A DNA stretch of 33,767 nucleotides, from contig CATKXS010000015.1 of assembly GCA_949841045.1 (NCBI GenBank), positions 1 to 33,767 on the forward strand, written 5' to 3'. Shown piece after piece: positions 1,924 to 32,852 of this stretch. The stretch comes from an uncultured Clostridia bacterium (lineage in GTDB: Bacteria > Bacillota > Clostridia > Christensenellales > UBA1242). Under the pieces are notes generated by a model. It was not told the origin of the DNA, ran no database searches, and saw only the letters and a program-made list of their open reading frames with translations. Positions within the stretch are counted from its first letter, which is position 1. Each line of letters starts with the position of its first letter. Position numbers and translations under genes: made by a program.

Positions 1924-4900
1924 ATGAAGAAATTTTTTGATTCTATAAAAAAACTATCTTTACCGCTTGTGCTTGCTATAGCTTTTTGCGTAGGCGGACT
2001 TGTCGCTTTTAAAAATAGTGACAATTTTCTTAATGCTTCTGCCGTGTTTCAGACAAAAAATGAACTGTCAAACAATCTGCCAGAGTATGTAACTTTTGAC
2101 TCCACTACTGAAAATGACGCATATAGGCTTAGTAATGTGGGCGACACCATTTATCTTTTCCAAAACGAAAGCCATAATGATGTCATCATCGGAAATCAGA
2201 AGATAGTAAGAGACACAATCTCTGTTGGCGGTATAGAAAAAACTGAAACAAACTATTACTATCAGCCAAGCCAAAGCAATGACCAAGTTTACTACTATTT
2301 TGATTTCACCTCTTCACTTTCGCTTTATTACAATTTAACAACAAGAGATTTAGAAAATGGAGAAATAGGAGACAATCTTCTTAGAAGTCAAAGTATTTCT
2401 AATTACATTTCAAGCGTTAATTCAGACACCGAAATTTCTTTCATCCCTCAAAACACTTCATTTACTCCAAAGCAATTCAATTTATCTTTCAAACTTAACA
2501 CACTTCAAGAAGCTATCAGCTTTGACGGAAATGTTGTAAACCTCAAAAATGAGGGTATTTACACCCTTGTCATTCCAGTAATTGAGTACTATACAACTAA
2601 TGGCGGAATAACTTTCACCTCCACTACTCGCGATATTTATTACAATTTCATGATATTTAACGCAAATACATATTTTGACGTTGTGACAGGCAAACCAAGA
2701 ATATCAAACTCAAGCAACGTTCAAGAGGCAATGCTTACAGCATCCAGCGCTTTCTCAACTTACTATTATTATAATTTCTCAAGTGCTGATATGATTGACA
2801 CCCTTCCAAGCATAAGCTTTGACCCAAATAAATTTGCCTTATCAGTTGAATACACTGACCTTGAATTAAATTCTCAACTCATATTCATTGAATACCAAAA
2901 CGAAAAACTTGTTGCTCTAGACGAACAAGGCAATGAACTTAGTGAAGAGGATAATTTCTTGGCTCTTGATATTAACACTCAAAATGCCAACTCAGCATCA
3001 ATTGCTTTCAGTAAAATAGGAAGCTATGATATGCACTTTTCATATCTCTACACTGTAAATAAAAATGGACAAAACCTTGTTTATAATCTTGACTTTGACA
3101 ATCTTTCTTCTAATTCTGTTTTTAGAAACAAGTCTCAAAGAATGTATGTTTACGGCTACGCAACGATGTATTCTGATTATGCCAATATAGACACTCTTAC
3201 AAATCAACCTAAAAATGTTGACTTAAAGACTTATGACACTTTCAATCATTATGTAAATTCTGCTGATATTACAAGCAAGGTAAACAATTACGCAAAAGAC
3301 AAAAATTATTCTTTCTCTAATGACCTTCGCTCTTCAAATCCTTCAAACGCCAATCCTTTTGATATAGTTGACTTAAAAGAGGCGACAGAAGCGGCTATTA
3401 AGAGTCTTAGCATTGTTCCAACTTCAACAAATCAAACACCTATCAAATTCTTGACGAACACAAGAAACACACCTTACAGCAAATTCTATAAGGTGACAAA
3501 TAATGAAGGCGTTGTTAAGCTTGATGAAGGAGTGGACTTTCAAGGTTTCAACCAAAACGACCCAGGCACTTATGTTTATATAATTCAATATCAATTTGAT
3601 TCATTCATGTCAACAAGTGGAACACTACAAAGTGCTTTGTATCATTATCAAATCTTCTACTTTACAGTTACAAACACCTTCCCTACTGTTAGTGTACTCG
3701 ATGGCAATTTCAATGAAGTTTACACAAACGGATTTACAAACAAGAATGTTTACATCTTAAATGATGCAGAAAACAACATTTATGATGCCAAAGTTGATAT
3801 TACATTATCAGCTCAAAACTATGAAACAAAAGCATACTATTTTCAGGATATAAGCATAAAAGAACTAGACGCTTACGGAATTCACTATCAAAACTTTATA
3901 AAATCAACTGATGAAGTTGGTGATAAGCTTTACAATGACAAAGTTGGCGGGAAAAGCGGTGTTTTAATTGAAAACACAAATAGATATGCAAATGCAAAAT
4001 TTACAATCAAAATCACCTCTGCAAACACTGATAAAGCTGGAAGCAGAACATTTACAATCGACACAAACGAAATTAAAAATATAACTTCAAGAAATGTTTC
4101 TCTTGTTTCTTCAACCACCTATCGAATTGGTGACACGTTCTCTAGTTATAACACAAATCAGCCTATGATTTTCTCTTGGGACGAAAAGGCAAGCGGAGCA
4201 AGAACTTATGGATATGTTTCATACATTCCAACAGAGGCAATCAACTACTATTCTTCTCAAGATAGCGACAACTTAAGTGACCTTCTTAGTAGGCTTAATG
4301 CAAGTGACATTCTTCCAGTCTCATACAAAATTGACCTTGCTTCTAAATCACAATGGACAGAATATTCAAACTCACTATCATTTAACAGTCTTATTCAATC
4401 AACTTATGTTAAGACAAATGACGGATTCTATATTTTGGAAGTCTATGACCAGGCCGGCAACTCAAGCTTTAATATCTTCTTAATTGATAAAAGTTCTCCT
4501 CTATTTATTCAAGAAATTTCAAGCCCAACTGGTGTTTCAAGGTCAATCTTCTCAAATAGCGATTGCATTTCAGTACCTGAAACAGGCGTGGACATTTCAA
4601 TTAAGTGGCTTAGTAATAAAGCAATAAAACTTGAAAATATTACCTCAATTTTATCATTACAATCATATCCATATAGTTATGACGTAAATAATGCAAACGA
4701 AAAACTTGGGACATTATTAAATGATTTCTTCAAACTTGAAAACAATGATAATATTACAACCTTAAGCGAAATCACAGTCAATGTTCAAACAGGCAGTAAC
4801 ACAGTAAGCACAGGCATTTCTTCATACAATGGCGAATATCTTGTTATGCCAATAAATAGTCGTGCTTATATCAAAGAAGGTGACTCACCTACTTTTAAAC

Positions 4901-7900
4901 CTTTTGACACAACCGAATATCAAATTAAATTCTTTGATGAGAATGGCAACTTAGTTGCTGACAATACAACATTTAAAATTTTAGTAAGAGATAGTTCAAA
5001 CACTCAAAATGCTGGAGATGAATCTCTCGCTTATAGAAATTATCCAAGCGGACACCTTTCTTTCAATGTAACTTCAGACGCGTCAAAACTCATGGTTTTG
5101 GCAAAAAATAGTTCTGGCGAATATGAATCTCTCGATTTCTCTACATATAGCCTATCAGGGAATTTATATTCGTTTGACAATGACGGGGTGATAAATTACA
5201 CTCATCTCTCAGGTGATGAGAGTTACACTTTGACCGATAAAATGTACAAATTCTCTTATTATACCCCTTCTAATAGCGCTCGCGAATTATACTTAAACTA
5301 CATTCCAGTCGCTGAAAATGGTTCAGTGCTTGAAAGCGTTATCCTCTACTACTACCCTTACGAGCGAAAAGTTCAAAGATATGATGGTGACAAAAATTAC
5401 TATTACTACTATGATTTGAAAGACACTTATACTCAAAAAATCAATATTTTCACTCATTCAGACAAAATTTACGAAACAGGAGCGGAAGAGTTATTCGAGA
5501 TAGCAATAGGCTCAGACAGTCTTCCACTTGCTGGAAAATATGTAATCGAAAGAATTTACAGAGATGATTCTACAACAAATCAATATGATTTCTTTAAAAG
5601 AACACTCTCTATCATCATTGATAATAAAAATCTTATCACTCCACTCGAAGCAGTTACTGACGAGAACAACAACGCTTCTCTTGAGAGTGTTGTTGGTGGA
5701 GATATTGTCCTTAGCATGTATAGCGGTGACAACAATGCATCAATTGAAGTCTCATTCCCTTCTTATAACGAGAATGGTCTTTCAACTGGTTCATTCTATA
5801 CTAAGGAAAACTTCAGCGAAAATGACAGTATTTCAAGTTTCTCAGTATCAAGCAACAAACTTCCATTATCGCTCTACATTCCTCAGTATAAATACACGGT
5901 TGCAAGCAGAAAATCAGTTAACATTTCAAATGGCGCAGAGTACAACGTAGTAAAAAATGATAACTTGTCATATTATGGAAATGCTTACTACACCTTTAAT
6001 TCAGAGACAAATCTTTATGACGTCTACGTTGAAGGCACTTTGGTTGACAGCTTTGGAAGAGAACAGCAAGCAATTGACTATCTCAGCACAACAGAAATAA
6101 AAGAATATCAGCTCCTCGTTGAAGTGAGAGCCACTGTTTACGAAAACAACAGAGAAGTAACTAAATATTACTATTCAAATGGCACAACAACAAATGGTTA
6201 TTTAAGACTTTATGAGGCAAGTGGTAAATTTGGAGCAATATCTAATAATGAACTTCAATATTTCTATCAAAGAGGAAATTATGTTGTAACAATGTACCAA
6301 GCATCAAACATTGGTACAACAAGCAGTTTCTACCTTCTTTATAAATTTGGATTTGAAATTATCTCACAAGCGCCTGATTTTGATGTTATTGGTGCAGATG
6401 GTTATAACCTTACTGCAACTAATCAGCCAAATATTTACTATACAAATTCTGATAGTCTAAAAGTGCAATGGGAAGTCCCAAAGAGCGAATATATAGCGAA
6501 AATTGACGAAAACAACATAACTATTAGAAGTTACCCTAGCGGTTTATTTACTAGGTCAGAAATTATAGATGAAACAACTTCAAAATATTTCACTATTGAC
6601 ACCTCTGCACTTTTAAATGCTAATAATAGTTACATTGAAATCACAATGCAGTATGAAGGTTATAACAGAAATTATTATTCTACTATTACAAAACGCATTT
6701 ACTTCGATAAGTCAATGCCAATTCAAAACCTTCAAAGTCTCATGACTCTCACAGAGCAAGCTACAAATGCATTTACAACCAATTATCAACTTATGTATAT
6801 GCGCGAATACTATGACTATAACAATGAAGAAGTCACACTTTCAAGCATAAGTGAGCTATCAAATATAAGTTATTCTTACTCGCTAAGCAGTGGTTATTTC
6901 AGATATTATAGTTATAACGTGACATCCGATTTCTTCACCTCTACCCTCACTCGCACAATCGCACAGGCGACAAATAATCCTTATGACACACAGTTTATCT
7001 ATTATAGAGAGGTAACAAATCTCAACACTTACATGCAAGTGGACAAAACTTCTTTCTCAGCAGGAAATTATTACTATATTTCAACAAATGAGACTATACT
7101 CGTAAATTGTGGTTACTACGAAATCGTAGAAATGGATTATGCTGGCAATATGGTGGTTTATCTAGTTCAAGTAACTTCATCTAATAGGGCCAATGACCCT
7201 GCCACTGAAAACACTGCTCTCACCTATTCAAACTTACAGACAGGCGAGAACATTGAAATTAGTAATGATGAAATCACAAATGGATACAACATCTATTCGA
7301 CAAGCGGATTTGAAATAAAATCTTTCAATTACAAATCTGACGATTGGGCTTACTTCACAGTTCGACTTGCAGGAGAAAGCGAAGTAAACTATATGAAATC
7401 ACCTTGGCTTGATGACAGTCAAGTATACAGACTCTCATATTCTACAAGTGGCATCAACTTTAGACAAACAAGTCTTGCTTCTATATTTGAAGAAATTCAA
7501 TCTTCTGCAAATAAGCATATGATGACTTTGACAAATAGAATAGAAGGGTCGTCACTTCCAATCTACATTTCAATTATGGACGCTTCACTTTCTACTCAAA
7601 AAGTTGAAGACCCAACCAAGACTTCTGCAATTTTGAACATTTCTATTCCAACCCCTGCCGAAGTTGAAAGTACAACGACAAGTTATATTTTCCCTCAGCA
7701 TATCACAATTTACCAATTTGACAACAATTTAACTGGCGAAAACAAATGGCGTACAATTATGATTGCTGACCAAAACAGTTATGGCACTTGGACACCAACG
7801 GCTGAATTCAGCTCTGCACTTTCTTACATTTCATTCAGGACTCTTGCAGGCAACAGGACTCTTCAGCTTACAATTAATCTTGGTGCAAACTCCTCTCAAA

Positions 7901-10302
7901 AAGTCAAGTATGAGATTGTTGACAATTTTGGAACGGTAACAACAGTTATCCAACTTGCAAATGAAGTAAGTTATAGAGAAATTTCAGGTAACAAGACTAT
8001 ACACAGCCTAACAGAAAATGATGGCTCTATTACCTACCTTTCATCTGATAAAATCAACTTCTCTTACAATGTGCTTCTTTACAATATTAGCGTATTTGAC
8101 AGAGATGGAATTGAAGTTACTGAAGAAATTTATTCAACTATAAATTCAAGCACAAACATTAGAACTCTTGAATTTAATCCAACAAAAGATGCATTCTTCG
8201 ATGATTATTATAAAATTATCGTAAAAGACCTTGAAGAGGACACCGAAATCAAAACTCTTCATGTGAGACTTTACAATAAACTTCCTTTCAGAACTAACAT
8301 TTCAAGTGAAGTTCAAGACGGCGGAATAATCTTCAATGATAAAAATCAACAACCTATTGACGAAAAGAATATTGGTCAAATTCCAAATGCAAGTGTTAAC
8401 TTCAATGGTAAAAATTACTATGCAACTGCCGATTATATTACAACTTTCTCATACAATGTTACTCTCCGTTTCTATAACGGACAAAGTCTTGGCTTTGAAG
8501 GACGTAACCACTATCAAGATGGATATGCATTCAGCGTATACCTCTCAAGCGATAACGGCCAGACATGGGTCAATATAAACAGCGTAAATTCTGATACAAA
8601 TGGTTATACAATTACTGGCGTTGGCGAATATATCGTGCTTGTTAAGTATGATAACGAAGACGTATTCACAGACATGTGCAAACTTTTCTTCTTATCAATT
8701 CTCGACTCTTCATCATCTTACTATTATATTACAGTTGATGGTCTAAATATTGATAAGTCAGATGTCAAATACACTTCTCTCGCTGGAAATACTTACGAAA
8801 TCAACTATATTGTAAGCGTTGATTATCAAGACAAGAACAACCGTCTTAAAATAACCACAAATGAAGATTTAAATGTTGCACTTTCACTTATCACAGTAGA
8901 TAGCACAGGAAGTAATGTAACTGTTGAAATTTATAGATATGAATGCACTGAATCAGTTGGAGAATTTACTATCATTTATATTGCAGAAACAAACAATATT
9001 ATAAGTACTTTCACGTACGAAACATCAACTGGCACTACAACTTCAATTAAAGATTTGAGTTCGGTAATTATTGTTGCTAACAGAGAAACAGAACCAAACT
9101 TTGATAAACTTAGAATCAACTTCTCTTCTAGCTATGGAATTGATTCAAATAAAATCAATATTGAAGTTACAAAACTATTTGATGGAACATATAAAACCAT
9201 TTACAGCCCAGTTTATTCAGACGGTGTTGATAGTTACATTTATCTGCCAGAACCTGGTAGTTACAGACTTAGAGTTTACGACTCATGTTCACCTGCCAAT
9301 GTTCAAACCTTTAATGGTAGCAGATTTATAGACGTAATATTCTTAAGTTCTGTTCCATTTACCGTTACAAGCACTAACGAAAATGGTGAGAATATCACAA
9401 CTGAGCCTATTCAAAAGGCTATATTCAATGGAAACGTTGTAATCAGACCAACTTATCTATCAAGCTATTATCAAGCCTCTAGAATGCCTTCTATAAGCGT
9501 TAAGAGGAATGGTACAGAATACACTGGTTATACACTCTCAAATAACACTTACACGTTCACAGCTTCTGGTTACTACTCTATAATATTCAATGCTACCTCG
9601 ATTACTGGTATTCCTGTTAGAACTGAAGAATATTTCTTCACAATAATAAACCAAAATGAATCAAGATATGCTTTTGAATTTACTGAGTTCGACAAATATT
9701 ACATTGAAAAAGTTGAAAAAAATGGCGTTGATATTACAGACGACCTTGTTTCAATCGGAAATTTCTCAAGTATCACAGTTGACGGAAAGAAATATATAAC
9801 TAATCTTACCCTCAATTATCTTGATGAAAAAACTGGCGGTGGAAGATATAAAATTACCATTAATCCAAACAACAACGAAATGAAAAACACCATCGGTGAA
9901 AACTTTACTTTCAGTCTCTGGATAAATATGGCTACCCCACCTATTAGTGTTTCAATCGGTGAAGGCGAGAAAACTACTAAAAACATTGTAATCACATTCA
10001 ATGTTCAAAATCTCTACCAAGCTGTTGGTGACTGCTATCTTCAAATAGGTACAACTATAAGACAATATAACCGTTCAAATATCAACTCTTATGGCACAAA
10101 CGAGAATATAACAATCCTAAACACTGGAACATATTATATTCAAATCTACACTGCAAGCGGTCAACTTCTCTACTCATATAAAGTAATTAAGTCTGAGCCA
10201 TTAAATGCATTCGCAATTATAGCCATTGTTGTTGGTGTAATCGCTGCTGGTGCAATAGTAGGTATCACCATCGCACTTAGAAAGAGACAAAAGATTAAAT
10301 AG
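1924..10302 (+). CDS. Giant cell-surface protein with Ig-like repeats and C-terminal membrane anchor
   Basis: 2,792 residues, no family recognised as a whole. The N-terminus has a basic start, a hydrophobic core (LPLVLAIAFCVGGLVAF, about 14-30) and a possible cleavage site after NASA. The C-terminus has one membrane helix (AFAIIAIVVGVIAAGAIVG) followed by RKRQKIK, so the protein should be exported and held by a C-terminal anchor with a cytoplasmic basic tail; no LPXTG motif is seen. The ectodomain is rich in Tyr, Ser, Thr and Asn and predicted beta-rich. A recurring Ig-like strand pattern G-x-Y-x-(I/V)...D/Y..GN...F.I appears near residues 211, 364, 548, 834, 1204, 1451, 1730, 2235, 2445, 2549 and 2736, for example GFYILEVYDQAGN and GYYEIVEMDYAGN. 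SD AGAGGTG precedes the ATG. An adhesin or surface-layer role is inference. No good promoter is seen in the 212-bp gap; a TTGACA at 1751 lacks a convincing -10. Confidence 0.85.
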   Translation: MKKFFDSIKKLSLPLVLAIAFCVGGLVAFKNSDNFLNASAVFQTKNELSNNLPEYVTFDSTTENDAYRLSNVGDTIYLFQNESHNDVIIGNQKIVRDTISVGGIEKTETNYYYQPSQSNDQVYYYFDFTSSLSLYYNLTTRDLENGEIGDNLLRSQSISNYISSVNSDTEISFIPQNTSFTPKQFNLSFKLNTLQEAISFDGNVVNLKNEGIYTLVIPVIEYYTTNGGITFTSTTRDIYYNFMIFNANTYFDVVTGKPRISNSSNVQEAMLTASSAFSTYYYYNFSSADMIDTLPSISFDPNKFALSVEYTDLELNSQLIFIEYQNEKLVALDEQGNELSEEDNFLALDINTQNANSASIAFSKIGSYDMHFSYLYTVNKNGQNLVYNLDFDNLSSNSVFRNKSQRMYVYGYATMYSDYANIDTLTNQPKNVDLKTYDTFNHYVNSADITSKVNNYAKDKNYSFSNDLRSSNPSNANPFDIVDLKEATEAAIKSLSIVPTSTNQTPIKFLTNTRNTPYSKFYKVTNNEGVVKLDEGVDFQGFNQNDPGTYVYIIQYQFDSFMSTSGTLQSALYHYQIFYFTVTNTFPTVSVLDGNFNEVYTNGFTNKNVYILNDAENNIYDAKVDITLSAQNYETKAYYFQDISIKELDAYGIHYQNFIKSTDEVGDKLYNDKVGGKSGVLIENTNRYANAKFTIKITSANTDKAGSRTFTIDTNEIKNITSRNVSLVSSTTYRIGDTFSSYNTNQPMIFSWDEKASGARTYGYVSYIPTEAINYYSSQDSDNLSDLLSRLNASDILPVSYKIDLASKSQWTEYSNSLSFNSLIQSTYVKTNDGFYILEVYDQAGNSSFNIFLIDKSSPLFIQEISSPTGVSRSIFSNSDCISVPETGVDISIKWLSNKAIKLENITSILSLQSYPYSYDVNNANEKLGTLLNDFFKLENNDNITTLSEITVNVQTGSNTVSTGISSYNGEYLVMPINSRAYIKEGDSPTFKPFDTTEYQIKFFDENGNLVADNTTFKILVRDSSNTQNAGDESLAYRNYPSGHLSFNVTSDASKLMVLAKNSSGEYESLDFSTYSLSGNLYSFDNDGVINYTHLSGDESYTLTDKMYKFSYYTPSNSARELYLNYIPVAENGSVLESVILYYYPYERKVQRYDGDKNYYYYYDLKDTYTQKINIFTHSDKIYETGAEELFEIAIGSDSLPLAGKYVIERIYRDDSTTNQYDFFKRTLSIIIDNKNLITPLEAVTDENNNASLESVVGGDIVLSMYSGDNNASIEVSFPSYNENGLSTGSFYTKENFSENDSISSFSVSSNKLPLSLYIPQYKYTVASRKSVNISNGAEYNVVKNDNLSYYGNAYYTFNSETNLYDVYVEGTLVDSFGREQQAIDYLSTTEIKEYQLLVEVRATVYENNREVTKYYYSNGTTTNGYLRLYEASGKFGAISNNELQYFYQRGNYVVTMYQASNIGTTSSFYLLYKFGFEIISQAPDFDVIGADGYNLTATNQPNIYYTNSDSLKVQWEVPKSEYIAKIDENNITIRSYPSGLFTRSEIIDETTSKYFTIDTSALLNANNSYIEITMQYEGYNRNYYSTITKRIYFDKSMPIQNLQSLMTLTEQATNAFTTNYQLMYMREYYDYNNEEVTLSSISELSNISYSYSLSSGYFRYYSYNVTSDFFTSTLTRTIAQATNNPYDTQFIYYREVTNLNTYMQVDKTSFSAGNYYYISTNETILVNCGYYEIVEMDYAGNMVVYLVQVTSSNRANDPATENTALTYSNLQTGENIEISNDEITNGYNIYSTSGFEIKSFNYKSDDWAYFTVRLAGESEVNYMKSPWLDDSQVYRLSYSTSGINFRQTSLASIFEEIQSSANKHMMTLTNRIEGSSLPIYISIMDASLSTQKVEDPTKTSAILNISIPTPAEVESTTTSYIFPQHITIYQFDNNLTGENKWRTIMIADQNSYGTWTPTAEFSSALSYISFRTLAGNRTLQLTINLGANSSQKVKYEIVDNFGTVTTVIQLANEVSYREISGNKTIHSLTENDGSITYLSSDKINFSYNVLLYNISVFDRDGIEVTEEIYSTINSSTNIRTLEFNPTKDAFFDDYYKIIVKDLEEDTEIKTLHVRLYNKLPFRTNISSEVQDGGIIFNDKNQQPIDEKNIGQIPNASVNFNGKNYYATADYITTFSYNVTLRFYNGQSLGFEGRNHYQDGYAFSVYLSSDNGQTWVNINSVNSDTNGYTITGVGEYIVLVKYDNEDVFTDMCKLFFLSILDSSSSYYYITVDGLNIDKSDVKYTSLAGNTYEINYIVSVDYQDKNNRLKITTNEDLNVALSLITVDSTGSNVTVEIYRYECTESVGEFTIIYIAETNNIISTFTYETSTGTTTSIKDLSSVIIVANRETEPNFDKLRINFSSSYGIDSNKINIEVTKLFDGTYKTIYSPVYSDGVDSYIYLPEPGSYRLRVYDSCSPANVQTFNGSRFIDVIFLSSVPFTVTSTNENGENITTEPIQKAIFNGNVVIRPTYLSSYYQASRMPSISVKRNGTEYTGYTLSNNTYTFTASGYYSIIFNATSITGIPVRTEEYFFTIINQNESRYAFEFTEFDKYYIEKVEKNGVDITDDLVSIGNFSSITVDGKKYITNLTLNYLDEKTGGGRYKITINPNNNEMKNTIGENFTFSLWINMATPPISVSIGEGEKTTKNIVITFNVQNLYQAVGDCYLQIGTTIRQYNRSNINSYGTNENITILNTGTYYIQIYTASGQLLYSYKVIKSEPLNAFAIIAIVVGVIAAGAIVGITIALRKRQKIK

Positions 10303-10351: not shown

Positions 10352-10452
10352 GTGCTTAAAGCACTACGAAGTGAACAAATTGTATCTAAGTCACACGAAG
10401 TAAACAAATTGTGTCTAAGACACACGAAGTAAACAAAAAGCGTCTAAGACGC
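10352..10452 (+). repeat. Tandem 29-30 bp repeats, each with a 5-bp stem / TAA-loop hairpin
   Basis: Four units start at 10352, 10382, 10411 and 10440. Their 13-nt palindromes are GTGCT-TAA-AGCAC, GTATC-TAA-GTCAC (two mismatches), GTGTC-TAA-GACAC and GCGTC-TAA-GACGC. The palindromes are separated by a conserved spacer like ACGAAGTAAACAAA. Stem bases change on both sides while the TAA loop is kept, which suggests selection for the fold. A further inverted repeat, GTTTATT/AATAAAC, lies just upstream (10321-10342). The array sits in the 3' untranslated region of the giant gene, directly before the terminator. Confidence 0.8.
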
Positions 10453-10455
10453 ACA

Positions 10456-10489
10456 CAAAAAAACACGGAAATAATTTCCGTGTTTTTTC
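10456..10489. terminator. Strong bidirectional terminator
   Basis: ACACGGAAA-TAA-TTTCCGTGT, a 9-bp stem flanked by A's on the left and T's on the right, between two convergent genes. Its right edge abuts the stop codon of the minus-strand gene. Confidence 0.92.
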
Positions 10490-21843: not shown

Positions 21844-24800
21844 ATGATAGCTTCAATCACTAATAATATTACACTTAAGAAAAAAGACGGAAATGAGGTT
21901 AAAATCGCTCAAGACCTCCGTATGAACACCGAAAATGAACACCTTTTAAGTCTTAAAGGTACTTTTCCTACTACTATTAAAGAAGAAGACGGCAGTGAAA
22001 GAGTTATGCTTGATTCAAAGTCTATTTTTGATGTTGACCGCAAGGAAGACGGAAAATATTCTATAGTCATAAATGACACTTCTATTTTGAAAGGTAAAGA
22101 CGGCAAGGACCTTGCCACCCTTCTTGGAATTAACACTGATGCCGAAAATAAAACTGCCACTTTGAATATTACCGCACCTCCAAGTACACTCACAATCGCA
22201 AAAAAACATGAGGAAATTTGTTTTAAGATTGTTGCAGAAAGTGGAAAACAATATGTTATAACTTCAAACGCAACTACTATCAGAGTTAAAACTGAAGGCG
22301 AAGAATTTAAATATAGTGCAACAGGCGACACTGCTATTTCAGTTGAAATGCACCCTGATATTATTGATGAATTTTTTGATAAAGATAAAAAATTCTGCAA
22401 AACTTTTGACCAGACAACTTTCACAAACCAAAAAAAGAAAAAAGACTTGCATCCAGAAGATACGTCTATAAAAGAGCCAGACGGTCTTACTGACATGCCA
22501 AAAGCTATCAATAACTTCCCTACAAAAATTCTATCCCTTTATGGTGCAACCATGAAAGGAAATAGCCATGTTATGTTTGGCGCTTCGAGCGAAGCAAATG
22601 GCTATACTCTCACTTCAATCGACCCGCTTGCTGATAAAGAAGGCAGAGCGGATGCTCAACCTTATATTTTTGTAACTAAGAACACAGAAGGCACATCAGC
22701 TTCACCTGCAAAACAAGATAATTATTTACTTATAAATGGTAAAATGCAAAAGTGCGACAATTTCTATCTACAATATGAACAAGAGGGTGAAATTAAAAAG
22801 CCTCAACTTGTTCTTGAAGTGCGTCCTCAAAATTCAAAAACAGGTTCGGTAAAATACTATTCAATTGACCTAAATTATGATAATAAAAAAAATCAACTAT
22901 CTGAAGAATCAATAAAAACCCTAAACCTTCTTGGTGATGTTGGAAATTTCGTTGATACAGCCGCAGATGAATCTCAAATAGTAAATATTCTTTCAAGTGA
23001 TGGCAAAAATCAAATTAAATTTGCAAAGAAAGATGATAGAGATTATGCAAAAGATTATTCATATTCATTAAAGAGCGACAATTACACCCTTGTATCTGAC
23101 GAGCCAAATGATGAAGATGAAACAGTTGGAGGAGATGATTTAGGACCAGAAGAGCCTGAACGCAACGATACTGGTGATACTGATGAACCAGAAAAAGGTA
23201 AGAAGAAAGAAGCCCCTGCTCCAATAATGAAACATAAAAAAGGGTTCAACTACGAAAAACAAGTTGAAGCTTTTGCTGGAGCAATAGAAATTCTTGCTTT
23301 CTTTCTTGGAATTGGCTCTATTCTCACTGGCGGTATTGCCCTTCTTATTGCCGGACTTGTTCTTGGCGGAATTGGCATCACTGGGCAAACATTTGCATCA
23401 AAATTTGTCGCTGAAGAACGCGATATTGCACTTAAAAGATTAGAAGAATACGAACAGCAACAAAGTGAAGATGAAAAATTTGAAGAAAACTTCATGGCAA
23501 ACGAAGCTGCTCTTGACAATGCAATGGGACTTGCTGAGGAAAAAGAAAGCGGACTTGCCGAGATGCTTGCAGATGAAAACTCTCCTGCTCATAAACTTGC
23601 AAATGCATTCGATGAATACGGTGTTGGCTTTGAAAGATTACCAGAAGGCATGACAAGAACAAATGCACTGTCGAGCATAAATGGTTATCAGGCTAAAACA
23701 AAAATGCTCAGTTCTCTTGAACAAATCACTTCAGCTCATGATATTGCAACAAGAAATCAAATGATTGCACAGTTTATGAATACAAACTTTGCTCCAATGC
23801 CAGAAGAAAAGAAAACAGAACTTACTACTGCCCTCTTTGGACCAGAAAAGGCAGATGCAAATACAATTTCTTCAAAAAATGAAGCACTTAAGCCTTTTAT
23901 CACTTCTTTAAGAGAAACAGTTGTATACGAAGAAAGAGAAAAACAACTTTTAGACAAGCAAAGAGATAGTTTGAGTTCTGCTCGTGACAGCTCTATTTTA
24001 AGAACTATTGGCTCAAAGAGTTTTGACAAAGCAAAACGCGAAAAGTTCTTCAATCGTTATTCAGATGTACTTGTAAGAAAAATGTCTACAGACAAGAGTC
24101 TTAATGAAGCAAAAATAAACAACCTTTTAAACAAGATTCCTGAAAATGAGAGGGCTTTTGCCATTGACAAGCTTGCTCTTTCATCAAAAAATATTGAAGA
24201 CACTTTGGCGCTTGTTGAAAAAACAGCTAATGAAAACAGAACAAAAGTTAACACTCTTCAAGATGCTATGGTTTATGTTAAAGCCTTAAACAATCTTAAA
24301 AATAAACCAAACGAATATGTTTCGTTTACAAAAACCCAAGACGACCTTGTTAAGTTATTAGATGCAAGAACTTTAACTTATCGCCAAAATAGTCTTATCG
24401 AAGATAAATATAAATTCCTTGAGACAATAGAAAATAACCTTACTAATTCAGCTGATAATAATGGAAAGAAGAATGTTTTACATGCACTACACTCTCTTAC
24501 TGGAACATATTCTTCAAATGACACCCATAATGATACTTCAAAAATTTTAGCACAAATTCAACAAAATCATCAAGAAATAAGAAATCTTCTCATTTCTCAT
24601 TTCAGCGAAGAGCTAACAGATATATCATGCCTATATGATTCCTCTACTGTACTTCCTAATTCTAAGAAATTAAACCAAGTAGGAAATGAAGGCAACTATA
24701 TTGAGATTGCATCTAAGTATATTAGCGAAAAAGACCCTAAAACTAACGAACTTACCCTTCGTGCAAAAAGACTAAAAGGTCTTATTGATGACTATAACAA

Positions 24801-27183
24801 AAATTCAAAAGAATATTTAAATAATCGTTATAACGCTAATGATTTCAATTCTCTACAAGCATATTTAAAGAGCGAAGTAAAAGACCAGCTCAAAGATGTT
24901 GAAAATGCTAATGAATATTTAGATAATATTGTTTCTGAAAAAGCCATCGAAGATAAAGTAAAATCCTTTAAATCGTCTTATGCAAAAGCTTATATTAATG
25001 AGGATACTAAAAAAGAAATTGCAAAAGCTATGCTTTATGCTGAGGCAGGTCTCAAAAATAAAAACATTTCAAATGTTGATAAAGCCATTTTTGAAAACAG
25101 CATTTCTACCCTTAATCTTGTATTAACAGGTAAATTATTACAAGCAAACATTGATAAAGCTGTTGTTTCATCTTTAGGAGATGAACTTGCAAACAAAAAT
25201 AGAGAAGATGCAATCAAATTGCTTAACAAGACAAGTCAAGACTTTACGAATTCTGCTAAAGGTTATAAAAAACTTTATAACTTAGTCTCTGACCTCAACC
25301 TTTCAAATGACGCCAAAAAAGAAATTAAATTTCAAACTGGCGATAAAAATATCGCTGAAAAAGCTTCAAACATTATAAATGAAGATTTAAAAGACAAAAA
25401 AGCTGACGAAAATGGCCTAACTTATGGAGATATTCTTGAAAAATCTTTATTCAATATGGAAATACTTGAAAAAGAAATTAATAATATGCAATTCTTAACA
25501 GGTGCAGAGCAGCGAAACATTATTGGCGACATCCGCAACATGAAAAATACTCCTGAACTGAAACACAACCCTGCAGCTAGAAAATCTAATTTGGAATTCT
25601 GTTTTTCTCGCCGAATTGACCCAAAAACTTATAAAGAACACAAGAAAGAACTTGATGCTCTAATAAAACTTGCTGGCACTTATGCGGAAGTTAGCATTGC
25701 TAAAGATTTGATTAATAATGAAATTAAGAATGTTAACGAAAGAAGCAAAGCAGTCCTTGAATCTTCTTGTGAAGATGTACTTGGTAAAGAGTATGCAAAC
25801 AGCGAATATAGACGTCTTCAAGTGACTAACGACAAGAACAAAAATGACGAAAAGACATTTGACAATGTTTACAAGCTTATGGTTGAACTTGCTCCTGGCG
25901 AAGATAAGGAAAAAGTTGAAGCAGACCTTAAAAAACTTGTACAAGAAAACCCTGACATGAAAGCTTCAAAAATAGCAAAAAAATTTGGAATTGATAAAGA
26001 TGCACTTGATAAAGGTTTAAAACAAGTTAAAAATAAGGGAATTGACGAAAATACTCAAAAATCAGTTTGGTTAAAAGAAAAAGAAGTAAATGATTCATTA
26101 ATAGTTGTCGAAGAATTTAAGGAAGCTTGGAAACAGGCACTTAGCGGAGATACAAAAAAACTTGAAACATTTATAGAAAACTCTAAGTCAAACAAAGAAC
26201 TTGAAAAACAGCAAAAGAAAGCCGATGAGCAAAAACTTAAAAACCTCAAAGGTGACGAATTAAAGAAGGCCAAAGCTGAAATTGAAGAAGCCAAGAAAGC
26301 TGAGCCTAAAAAGAATAAGAAAGAAATTGAAAAGCAAGATGAAAAAGCCATTGATTATGCTGAACTTTTAGACAATATTGGCCTTCCTGCTGAAGATATT
26401 GAAAAAGTTTTAAATGGTGAAAAGAGATTTGTAATAGACGGGCTCAAAAAGCTTGATAATCTCTCACCTGCCCTAAGAGCTGAAAAACTTCTTGCTGCAA
26501 AAAATGATGAATTAGATGAAATTAAACTTCAGTCTTCGCTTTTAACTGATGCTGATAGAAAAATTGCAAAGGCTTGCAAAAATCTTGAAAAATCAAACAA
26601 AGATGTTCAAGAATACAAAGCCAAAGTTGAACTTATCAAAAAGCTTGAAAAAAGTGGCGTTCCTGAAAAAGTCGTTGACGAAATTTATACAGCATTTGCA
26701 AATGGTGATAAAAAATATTTTGATAAAACAAAAATTGGTGACAAAACTATTAATGAACTACTTGCTGGCTATGAATTTGATGTTACTGATACTGCCCTTT
26801 TAAAACGTCTTGGAATTGACCCAAAAGACATTAAAAATGGAAAGACAAGAAATAGAACACTTAAAGACGCCGAAATGCAAATTCAGATTCAAAACATTTC
26901 AAATCAAATAAAAGTTAATTTCGCTCAAGATAATGCAACTAAAACAGATGTTCAACATGAAGGCGACCTGTCTAAAGAAAAACCTCAAGAGGCAAAAGAA
27001 GGTCTTGGATTCTTCAAAAAACTTATCGATATATTTAAAGATAAATCTGACAAAGCTATTGCAGAGCAAAAAGAAATTGATAAACAAGTTGAAGAAGCAC
27101 ATGCAAATGAACATACTGAAGAAAAAGATTATGAATCAAAGCCTGTAAAAGAAGTTGATGATAGGGAAGCTGAGGTTGAATAA
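21844..27183 (+). CDS. Giant protein with membrane hairpin and long charged helical tail, unrecognised
   Basis: 1,779 residues, family not recognised. Three parts can be seen. Residues 1-~420 look beta-rich, with no signal peptide. An acidic linker follows (DEDETVGGDD, EEPERNDTGDTDEPE), then a short basic patch. At about 480-520 two hydrophobic helices separated by Gly/Thr form a hairpin (ILAFFLGIGSILTGG, then IALLIAGLVLGGIGITG). From about 520 to the end the chain is almost entirely helical and Lys/Glu/Asn-rich, with a KKA/KAE-type coiled coil near 1450-1505. SD AGAGGAG and a perfect promoter suggest strong expression. The lack of a signal peptide suggests a membrane-tethered, largely cytoplasmic scaffold, but topology is uncertain. 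Divergent from secA. Confidence 0.82.
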   Translation: MIASITNNITLKKKDGNEVKIAQDLRMNTENEHLLSLKGTFPTTIKEEDGSERVMLDSKSIFDVDRKEDGKYSIVINDTSILKGKDGKDLATLLGINTDAENKTATLNITAPPSTLTIAKKHEEICFKIVAESGKQYVITSNATTIRVKTEGEEFKYSATGDTAISVEMHPDIIDEFFDKDKKFCKTFDQTTFTNQKKKKDLHPEDTSIKEPDGLTDMPKAINNFPTKILSLYGATMKGNSHVMFGASSEANGYTLTSIDPLADKEGRADAQPYIFVTKNTEGTSASPAKQDNYLLINGKMQKCDNFYLQYEQEGEIKKPQLVLEVRPQNSKTGSVKYYSIDLNYDNKKNQLSEESIKTLNLLGDVGNFVDTAADESQIVNILSSDGKNQIKFAKKDDRDYAKDYSYSLKSDNYTLVSDEPNDEDETVGGDDLGPEEPERNDTGDTDEPEKGKKKEAPAPIMKHKKGFNYEKQVEAFAGAIEILAFFLGIGSILTGGIALLIAGLVLGGIGITGQTFASKFVAEERDIALKRLEEYEQQQSEDEKFEENFMANEAALDNAMGLAEEKESGLAEMLADENSPAHKLANAFDEYGVGFERLPEGMTRTNALSSINGYQAKTKMLSSLEQITSAHDIATRNQMIAQFMNTNFAPMPEEKKTELTTALFGPEKADANTISSKNEALKPFITSLRETVVYEEREKQLLDKQRDSLSSARDSSILRTIGSKSFDKAKREKFFNRYSDVLVRKMSTDKSLNEAKINNLLNKIPENERAFAIDKLALSSKNIEDTLALVEKTANENRTKVNTLQDAMVYVKALNNLKNKPNEYVSFTKTQDDLVKLLDARTLTYRQNSLIEDKYKFLETIENNLTNSADNNGKKNVLHALHSLTGTYSSNDTHNDTSKILAQIQQNHQEIRNLLISHFSEELTDISCLYDSSTVLPNSKKLNQVGNEGNYIEIASKYISEKDPKTNELTLRAKRLKGLIDDYNKNSKEYLNNRYNANDFNSLQAYLKSEVKDQLKDVENANEYLDNIVSEKAIEDKVKSFKSSYAKAYINEDTKKEIAKAMLYAEAGLKNKNISNVDKAIFENSISTLNLVLTGKLLQANIDKAVVSSLGDELANKNREDAIKLLNKTSQDFTNSAKGYKKLYNLVSDLNLSNDAKKEIKFQTGDKNIAEKASNIINEDLKDKKADENGLTYGDILEKSLFNMEILEKEINNMQFLTGAEQRNIIGDIRNMKNTPELKHNPAARKSNLEFCFSRRIDPKTYKEHKKELDALIKLAGTYAEVSIAKDLINNEIKNVNERSKAVLESSCEDVLGKEYANSEYRRLQVTNDKNKNDEKTFDNVYKLMVELAPGEDKEKVEADLKKLVQENPDMKASKIAKKFGIDKDALDKGLKQVKNKGIDENTQKSVWLKEKEVNDSLIVVEEFKEAWKQALSGDTKKLETFIENSKSNKELEKQQKKADEQKLKNLKGDELKKAKAEIEEAKKAEPKKNKKEIEKQDEKAIDYAELLDNIGLPAEDIEKVLNGEKRFVIDGLKKLDNLSPALRAEKLLAAKNDELDEIKLQSSLLTDADRKIAKACKNLEKSNKDVQEYKAKVELIKKLEKSGVPEKVVDEIYTAFANGDKKYFDKTKIGDKTINELLAGYEFDVTDTALLKRLGIDPKDIKNGKTRNRTLKDAEMQIQIQNISNQIKVNFAQDNATKTDVQHEGDLSKEKPQEAKEGLGFFKKLIDIFKDKSDKAIAEQKEIDKQVEEAHANEHTEEKDYESKPVKEVDDREAEVE

Positions 27184-27381: not shown

Positions 27382-27408
27382 GAGCATAATGCTCAGAGCT
27401 TAAAGCTC
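27382..27408 (+). repeat. Two adjacent TAA-loop hairpins in the ychF leader
   Basis: GAGCA-TAA-TGCTC (27382-27394) and GAGCT-TAA-AGCTC (27396-27408) sit 17 bp before the ychF start. They share the 5-bp stem / TAA loop design of the array at 10352-10452, with different stem sequences. Confidence 0.65.
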
Positions 27409-30845: not shown

Positions 30846-32852
30846 ATGGAAAATTTTGTCAGACCAAGACCAACCTTTCCAAGTAAAGCCGTTATAACAT
30901 GCGGTATGCCGTACGGCAATAAAGAATTACACTTTGCACACGTTGGACTTTCACTTCGCGCTGATACTTTTGCACGGTTTATGCGTGACCGCATCGGCAA
31001 AGACAATGTCGTGTTTGTATCTGGAACAGACTGCTACGGCTCGCCTGCTCTTGAATATTTTAGAGCAAAAAAGGAAAGCGGCGAAATTGACGATGATAGC
31101 GTAAAAGATTTTGTTGAGCGTAATCATCATAGTCATGTAGACACCTTGAATGCTTTTGGCGTGAACTTCAACTTTTTTGGAGCATCTGCACTTGAACCTG
31201 CCAGCACAATTCATAACCAAATGAGCCATGATTTTATAACAAAACTTAGCGAAGCTGGCATGGTATCAACAAGACATTCTTGGCAATTTTATGACGAAGA
31301 ACACAAGTGTCTTTTGAATGGCAGGCAGGTAATAGGAAAATGCCCTATTGAGGGTTGCACAAGTGAAAAAGGTTACGCTGACGAATGCGACCTTGGACAT
31401 CAATATCTTCCTCAAGACCTCATTGACCCAATAAGCACGCTCAGCGGTAAGACACCAAAACTTGTAAAGTGCGAAAACTTATATTTCGACCTTGAAAAAT
31501 GTGGTGATTTATTAAACGAATGGATTGCATCAATCGAAAAAGAAAAGGAAACACCTTCATTTCTTGTTAAAGATATAAAAGAATTCTTTAAAAAGCCTGA
31601 AGTCTATATAAAGAAAGACTACTTTGAAAAGTTTAACGAAATTCGCGCCCTTCTTCCTGCTTTTGAAGAACTTGAACGCAAGCCAAGTACTCCAAGTATG
31701 ACAATCGTGTTTTCTAGTCTTGCCGACCGCGAAAAAGCATGCGAAATCATGGCAAAAAATGATATTCATTATAGAACAGGAAAGACACTCACCCCATTCA
31801 GACTTTCTGGAGACATTTCTTGGGGCGTGCCATGTCCAGAGATAAATGGCGTTAAAAATCAGACATTTTATGTATGGCCAGAAAGCCTTTGGGCACCTAT
31901 TTCATTTACAAAAACATACCTTAAAAGCATCGGCAAAAATGAGGACGAATGGAAAAAATATTGGTGCTCATCTGACGCACGCGTATTCCAATTTTTGGGC
32001 GAAGATAATATATATTTCTATGGTCCTGCCCAGCAGGCTATGTTCCTTTTCTCGCAAGGGAAAGAGCCTGTTTATCCAGCACCAAACGGAAGTCTGCAAA
32101 ATACAACTATTGTACCTATAAAATTCCTTTTATTTATGAACACTGTTGCCTCTTCTTCTGGCAAAATCAAGCCACCTCTTGCAAAAGAACTTCTGTCTTA
32201 TTACACCCCTGACCAATTCCGTCTACACTTCCTTGCAATGAATCTTGGAAACAACACTGTTTCATTCAATCCAAAACCATTCAATCCAAATGCAAAGGAA
32301 GATGATATTGACCCTGTTATAACTGAAGGCAATCTTCTCACAAATGTTTACAACCGCATACTCAGAACAGTTTTCTATTCAACTCAAAATTTTCTTAACG
32401 GCATTATCCCACAAGGAAAAGTGGACTATAGCGTTATGGAAGAATGCAAAAAGACAATCTTAAATTACGAAAGATTTATGTATGAGAGAAAATTCCACCA
32501 GGCCTACAACACTGTTGATGTGTTCGTGAGAAATATAAACAAATACTGGGTAAAAGAAATAAAAAATGACCTCGACATCGAGGCACTAGAAAAACTTACA
32601 ATCAATGCTATGCAATACATTTTTGTAGCAAACATTCTCCTTCACCCTATGACTAGTGGCACAGAAAAAGTCGCTGATTATATCGGCTTTGACAAAGATA
32701 AATGTTTCAGTTGGAATTATATATTTGATGACTTCTATAAAGTCCTTGACCCAACAAGAGAAAACAAACTCACCTTCTTAAAAGAAAGAGAAGATTTCTT
32801 CAAAAAACACCAAGCTCAACTTGATGAACTTGCTAAGAAAAACATGGCTTAA
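30846..32852 (+). CDS. Methionyl-tRNA synthetase-like class I enzyme, divergent
   Basis: 668 residues. It is a class I synthetase with MetRS features: CGMPYGNKELHFAHVG holds the HIGH-type motif (HFAH, 29-32). FVSGTDCYGSPALEY, the zinc-knuckle region CPIEGC...ECDLGH and DISWGVPCP also match MetRS. Three things are odd. The last zinc ligand is His, not Cys. The KMSKS loop reads ASSSGKIKPP (about 435-444) and lacks the usual first Lys. About 70 extra residues sit before DISWGVP. There is no C-terminal EMAP tRNA-binding domain. It may be a paralogue with altered function rather than the housekeeping MetRS. GGAGG precedes the ATG. Its stop lies inside the terminator shared with the convergent gene. 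Confidence 0.85.
   Translation: MENFVRPRPTFPSKAVITCGMPYGNKELHFAHVGLSLRADTFARFMRDRIGKDNVVFVSGTDCYGSPALEYFRAKKESGEIDDDSVKDFVERNHHSHVDTLNAFGVNFNFFGASALEPASTIHNQMSHDFITKLSEAGMVSTRHSWQFYDEEHKCLLNGRQVIGKCPIEGCTSEKGYADECDLGHQYLPQDLIDPISTLSGKTPKLVKCENLYFDLEKCGDLLNEWIASIEKEKETPSFLVKDIKEFFKKPEVYIKKDYFEKFNEIRALLPAFEELERKPSTPSMTIVFSSLADREKACEIMAKNDIHYRTGKTLTPFRLSGDISWGVPCPEINGVKNQTFYVWPESLWAPISFTKTYLKSIGKNEDEWKKYWCSSDARVFQFLGEDNIYFYGPAQQAMFLFSQGKEPVYPAPNGSLQNTTIVPIKFLLFMNTVASSSGKIKPPLAKELLSYYTPDQFRLHFLAMNLGNNTVSFNPKPFNPNAKEDDIDPVITEGNLLTNVYNRILRTVFYSTQNFLNGIIPQGKVDYSVMEECKKTILNYERFMYERKFHQAYNTVDVFVRNINKYWVKEIKNDLDIEALEKLTINAMQYIFVANILLHPMTSGTEKVADYIGFDKDKCFSWNYIFDDFYKVLDPTRENKLTFLKEREDFFKKHQAQLDELAKKNMA

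Follow-up and report, generated by a model that had tools for sequence, protein, structure and literature searches.

The window (the whole 33,767-nt stretch analysed, from the 1.16-Mb genome of an uncultured gut Clostridia bacterium, hereafter G000) contains a short array of palindromes with the loop TAA, placed between the stop codon of a 2792-aa ORF and a bidirectional intrinsic terminator that adjoins the array (Table 1). This terminator lies between the 2792-aa ORF and a convergent 465-aa ORF on the minus strand. ORF calls were mechanical. The 2792-aa ORF had no Pfam match, a 1779-aa ORF elsewhere in the window had no NCBIfam match, and a 668-aa ORF resembles methionyl-tRNA synthetase at scores far below curated cut-offs.

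Table 1. Coordinates of the array, the adjoining terminator and other features of the window
Feature	Position	Strand	Basis
2792-aa ORF	1924..10302		mechanical ORF call
Hairpin 1, GTGCT-TAA-AGCAC, without ACGAAGT spacer upstream	10352..10364	+	sequence; palindrome census
Unit 2, spacer ACGAAGTGAACAAATT + GTATC-TAA-GTCAC, 3/5 pairs left	10366..10394 (hairpin 10382-10394)	+	sequence; covariance-model match 1.6e-7
Unit 3, spacer ACGAAGTAAACAAATT + GTGTC-TAA-GACAC	10395..10423 (hairpin 10411-10423)	+	sequence; covariance-model match 2.3e-9
Unit 4, spacer ACGAAGTAAACAAAAA + GCGTC-TAA-GACGC	10424..10452 (hairpin 10440-10452)	+	sequence; covariance model; terminator scan
Bidirectional intrinsic terminator, adjoins array	10458..10488	.	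15-nt perfect inverted repeat with A-run and T-run
1779-aa ORF	21844..27183		mechanical ORF call
Two TAA-loop hairpins back to back, GAGCA-TAA-TGCTC, A, GAGCT-TAA-AGCTC	27382..27408	+	palindrome census
668-aa ORF	30846..32852		mechanical ORF call

The four N5-TAA-N5' palindromes that a sequence-only reading of this DNA had described are present, at successive distances of 30, 29 and 29 bp, and the 29-nt period was recovered by TRF (10366-10454, 3.1 copies, 88% matches). Three of the four hairpins belong to exact 29-bp units made of a spacer (ACGAAGTRAACAAANN) and a 13-bp palindrome. The spacer ACGAAGTRAACAAA precedes these three, and the sequence 5' of hairpin 1 does not match it. As that reading also noted, one unit has lost pairing: two of the five pairs are gone from the hairpin of unit 2. 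On the minus strand, the hairpin of unit 4 is followed by TTTTTGTTTA, which makes it a weak terminator-like site.

The possibility that AT-rich sequence produces such palindromes at random, with no link to the spacer, was not borne out. A perfect N5-TAA-N5' hairpin was found 1-3 nt downstream in 40 of 71 spacer sites (<=1 mismatch) versus 657 of ~1.0 million other positions (0.00066), figures that measure association and not genome-wide density, since they rest on stretches mostly chosen for holding copies and on searches that scored the best 150 candidates per genome. Spacer motifs with shuffled column order (5 versions) had a hairpin at 0 of 56 sites. A chance origin of the association between spacer and palindrome is therefore excluded, and the kept TAA loop and its link to the spacer hold. 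In 80 kb of the host genome chosen regardless of matches, TAA loops were not enriched compared with other triloops (11/5101; 21.6 vs 22.6 per 10,000), so that this sample shows no general preference for the TAA loop. Taken with the spacer-linked hairpins, this points to a clustered, specific repeat family and not to a general AT-rich feature.

We looked for the unit in other genomes with a covariance model built from 22 units, scoring the best 150 candidates per genome. Among these candidates, ~30 strong full-length units were found in the window genome and ~38 strong units in a rabbit-gut MAG, 'uncultured Clostridia bacterium Lapin-030 bin48' (G061), while 22 same-genus and 14 same-order genomes gave only weak or partial matches among their best 150 candidates each. 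When 84,980 species genomes were scanned by pattern, possibly without records of the window's own genome, repeated matches came from one assembly, Lapin-030 bin48. The other matches are taken as chance: those in Anaerolineales, Prosthecobacter, Bacteroidetes and Hymenobacter (one per record), and that in Firmicutes ADurb.Bin193, which had no hairpin after the spacer. SecA of the window genome and SecA of G061 share 79-85% identity, compared with 68, 73 and 84% for three same-genus genomes. These values lie within or above the same-genus range and suggest that the similarity of the two hosts is at the level of the genus.

The units form ~12 arrays in the window genome and ~13 in G061, nearly all outside ORFs, at unrelated genes and mostly behind gene 3' ends. 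In both genomes we thus find what characterizes small interspersed palindromic repeats, namely many short copies at unrelated intergenic sites. This bears on the earlier placement of the array in the 3' UTR of the giant gene. For plus-strand transcripts the term is a fair positional one, given that the array lies between the stop codon and the terminator; with unrelated genes adjoining the ~25 arrays of the two genomes, the position is not specific to this gene, and the window array is probably not a device of the giant gene. Palindromes without the spacer occur in the relative G002 as isolated hairpins that are often terminator-like. In this species without spacer arrays, isolated GTGCATAATGCAC and GTGCCTAAGGCAC hairpins were seen, several of them terminator-like and behind stop codons.

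Other hairpin repeats were seen alongside the family. The back-to-back pair in the window (Table 1) has a 14-nt period, stems one base pair apart and no spacer, and lies ~16 nt upstream of the ychF start; similar back-to-back triplets occur in the same genome at C25:9895-9935. A second modular repeat of ~71-80 bp is found on contigs C1, C3, C7 and C28 of G000, in places in tandem; in it TTCGTTCC is followed by a hairpin, a further hairpin with a TTA loop (either GCAAACTTAGTTTGC or GCGGATTATCCGC), TATCGTAAA and AT-rich sequence. Its counterpart in G061 has GGAGACTTAGTCTCC and similar linkers, adjoining ACGAAGT units. A second element pattern had no match in IMG/VR; the pattern TTTATCGTNNRCTATA, written for the ACGATA-type sister element, was too strict and misses even the host genome.

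Orthologous sites showed the arrays present in one species and absent from close relatives. Downstream of ftsZ, the window genome has a terminator, then ~5 hairpins over ~150 bp, then the next gene; in G010, whose FtsZ is 93% identical and whose next gene is the same, no array was found at this site, only a different terminator. Similarly, the hisS-uvrC gap of the window genome holds four hairpins, each running into 5-8 T, and the same gap in G010 and G002 holds no array but a single unrelated terminator. Both comparisons show array absence with differing flanks and not a clean, base-precise insertion. This presence/absence polymorphism would result from either recent gain in the window genome or loss in the relatives.

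The orientation of the arrays relative to genes differed between the two species. In the gaps between tandem genes, the TTA strand is the sense strand in 7/7 arrays of G000 (one judged from the strand of a 16S rRNA gene), whereas the TAA strand is the sense strand in 6/6 arrays of G061 (7:0 vs 0:6; Fisher p 0.0006). The other arrays that could be placed are in gaps between convergent genes or at the ends of contigs, with no clear divergent-gene case among them, and one array is directly upstream of the rpmH promoter region. This reversal is at odds with one conserved RNA function tied to a single strand.

To evaluate the stems, we used 46 distinct units picked by spacer and loop, with no pairing requirement. 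Across these units 93.9% of stem cells were paired, and in 44 cells both sides of the stem had changed. None of 500 shuffles was paired as highly, and slid controls gave 8-47%. The paired variation of the stems proposed earlier is thus real across copies, but the step from compensation to proof of selection on structure is not supported. The stems fall into recurring types (GTGCA, GTGCC and GCGTC make up 32/60 units, and GTGTC with GTGGC 7 more), and the main types are common to both species. Identical 16-nt spacers carry different cassettes, up to 3 base pairs apart, and spacer divergence did not predict stem distance or stem type across units. The stems are thus a few recurring cassettes swapped whole between identical spacers, which leaves few independent compensatory events.

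Chimeric hairpins, with half of each of two types (such as GCGTC/GGCAC, GTGTC/GGCAC and GTGCA/GGCAC), show the loss of pairing that recombination would cause, and one hairpin (GTGGC-TTA-GCCAC at C8:6383 of G000) carries an inverted loop on a normally oriented spacer. Single mismatches were symmetric (GT/TG 4 vs CA/AC 6, in a small sample of 14 single-mismatch hairpins), with no sign of an RNA wobble preference on either strand. A single template-switching step has been reported to produce both double changes that keep pairing and inverted loops (PMC8794818). Replacement of the whole hairpin, via recombination between units or template switching, explains the cassettes, the chimeras, the flipped loop and the mismatches. 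Cassette exchange or template switching at the DNA level therefore fits the stem data at least as well as RNA selection.

We consider it likely that a family of small interspersed palindromic DNA repeats, whose units spread and are exchanged at the DNA level, accounts for the array as one of its copies, and we read the TAA-loop family as a new family of this kind. Each repeat unit would combine a palindrome cassette of 13 bp (N5-TAA-N5') with an A-rich spacer of 16 bp (ACGNAGTRAAYARAAA). Such units would multiply locally into 29-bp tandem arrays and become scattered over intergenic regions, mostly at gene 3' ends beside terminators, where added DNA would do little harm. Recombination, slippage or template switching may serve both their spread and their exchange between copies. 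Stems would stay paired because replacement or correction acts on the hairpin as a whole (arm templating arm), more than through RNA selection. Some copies in the window genome are probably also weak intrinsic terminators on the TTA strand, where the hairpin is followed by TTTTT. Several points nonetheless count against a DNA repeat. Neither a transposase nor any other mover was identified, and the unit was found in no phage or virus. The uniform orientation within each species is left unexplained by neutral spread alone, and, in the case of old copies, conservation of the TAA loop and of portions of the spacer exceeds what neutral DNA should show. The site comparisons would also agree with a loss of the arrays in the relatives.

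Read on the TTA strand, the array could be a series of tandem weak intrinsic terminators (5-bp hairpin, UUA loop and U-rich tract, TTTTTGTTYACTTCGT), serving as back-ups that catch read-through past the main terminator of the 465-aa minus-strand gene. A terminator scan of the window array gave two minus-strand sites vs 0.1 expected. The uniform TTA-sense orientation in the window genome and the T runs behind each hairpin of the hisS-uvrC gap would suit this role, and isolated copies in the window genome and G002 directly follow stop codons and are flanked on either side by A/T tracts. Measured against an intrinsic terminator, however, the U-tract and orientation are as required in G000 but the stem is short (5 bp only; -3.9 to -5.6 kcal/mol as RNA) and the orientation is reversed in G061. 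A strong terminator already precedes several arrays, the window array on its minus strand folds no better than shuffles (z -1.1), and the loop and distal spacer are conserved although termination does not need them. With 7:0 here but 0:6 in G061, termination would be at most a local co-option, and we regard it as an unlikely account of the array; since the TTA strand in the window genome does provide hairpin and T-tract, weak termination there may plausibly be a by-product or a co-option. Alternatively, RNA from the TAA strand might form a structured element or an array of protein-binding hairpins, such as a sponge for a protein or a 3' UTR element for stability or processing. This would agree with the strong paired variation around a fixed loop, with a plus strand that folds better than shuffles in the window array (z -2.6) and with the TAA strand being co-directional with the upstream gene in G061. 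We find this doubtful, and more so than termination: the orientation to genes is reversed in the other species, the wobble preference is absent on the TAA strand, cassette sharing leaves few independent compensatory events, and the array at rpmH is directly upstream of a promoter region. Rfam 15 had no family match in the window at the gathering score and none at the arrays of seven other loci with E up to 1.

Mobilization of REP/BIME-type repeats by a RAYT (TnpA-REP, a Y1 transposase) would likewise yield short, clustered intergenic palindromes in tens of copies. REPs typically have a guide tetranucleotide and a bulged stem; neither was seen here. Y1_Tnp (PF01797) is absent from both host genomes and G002, and the same search found none in G010, G029 and G017, with control genomes positive as expected. 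A resident RAYT origin is thus largely refuted (~5% of the genome is missing from the assembly), and we give the REP/RAYT explanation hardly any weight. In another same-genus genome, G032, a Y1 transposase match with one internal stop was seen at C4:81612-81968; this genome also holds the GCAAACTTAGTTTGC element. A phage origin was rejected on the basis of IMG/VR, where the one unit-pattern match lies inside unrelated sequence without the palindrome of the unit.

Covariation is what is normally taken to prove that an RNA structure is functional. Such arguments meet a useful warning case in a dispersed DNA repeat with both strong paired variation and signs of DNA copying. It is conceivable, though we lean against it, that the palindrome cassettes are self-correcting, their arms copied from each other or replaced whole, so that covariation arises without RNA selection. 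If true, this would be a bacterial example of covariation from mutation and recombination alone. The TAA-loop family is well suited to the study of template switching in bacteria. In addition, it is a marker of recent genome change in an uncultured genus of the gut, where it could mislead RNA-motif or terminator prediction.

Small repeats of comparable habit are known from several systems. Among them are BOX, RUP and SPRITE of Streptococcus pneumoniae (PMC3049150), which are also small, interspersed, intergenic and modular, with an inner module (boxB) in variable tandem number, and SPRITE is terminator-like and enriched at gene 3' ends; their modules are longer, and the comparison is one of descriptions and not of sequences or stem cassettes. 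REPs and REPINs with their RAYT (PMC3116915, PMC8266576) share dispersed intergenic palindromes able to fold into hairpins, but the host genomes here are without RAYT, and a TAA triloop with an ACGNAGT spacer replaces the REP layout. In the organelle DNA of Volvox carteri, short intergenic palindromes are regarded as selfish DNA (PMC2670323). They run through intergenic DNA in clusters and nested within each other, with loops of 3-5 nt that are usually TAAA or TTTA; they differ in being organellar and in having longer stems (average element ~50 nt), and no 29-bp tandem unit of spacer and hairpin was seen in their description. Hairpin-forming and double-hairpin elements of mitochondria (PMC2800124 and its references) are likewise repeated and inserted in tandem in intergenic DNA, with stem types that differ by complementary substitutions. 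In the sponge elements, however, the stems are conserved and the loops vary, whereas in the TAA-loop family the loops are fixed and the stems vary.
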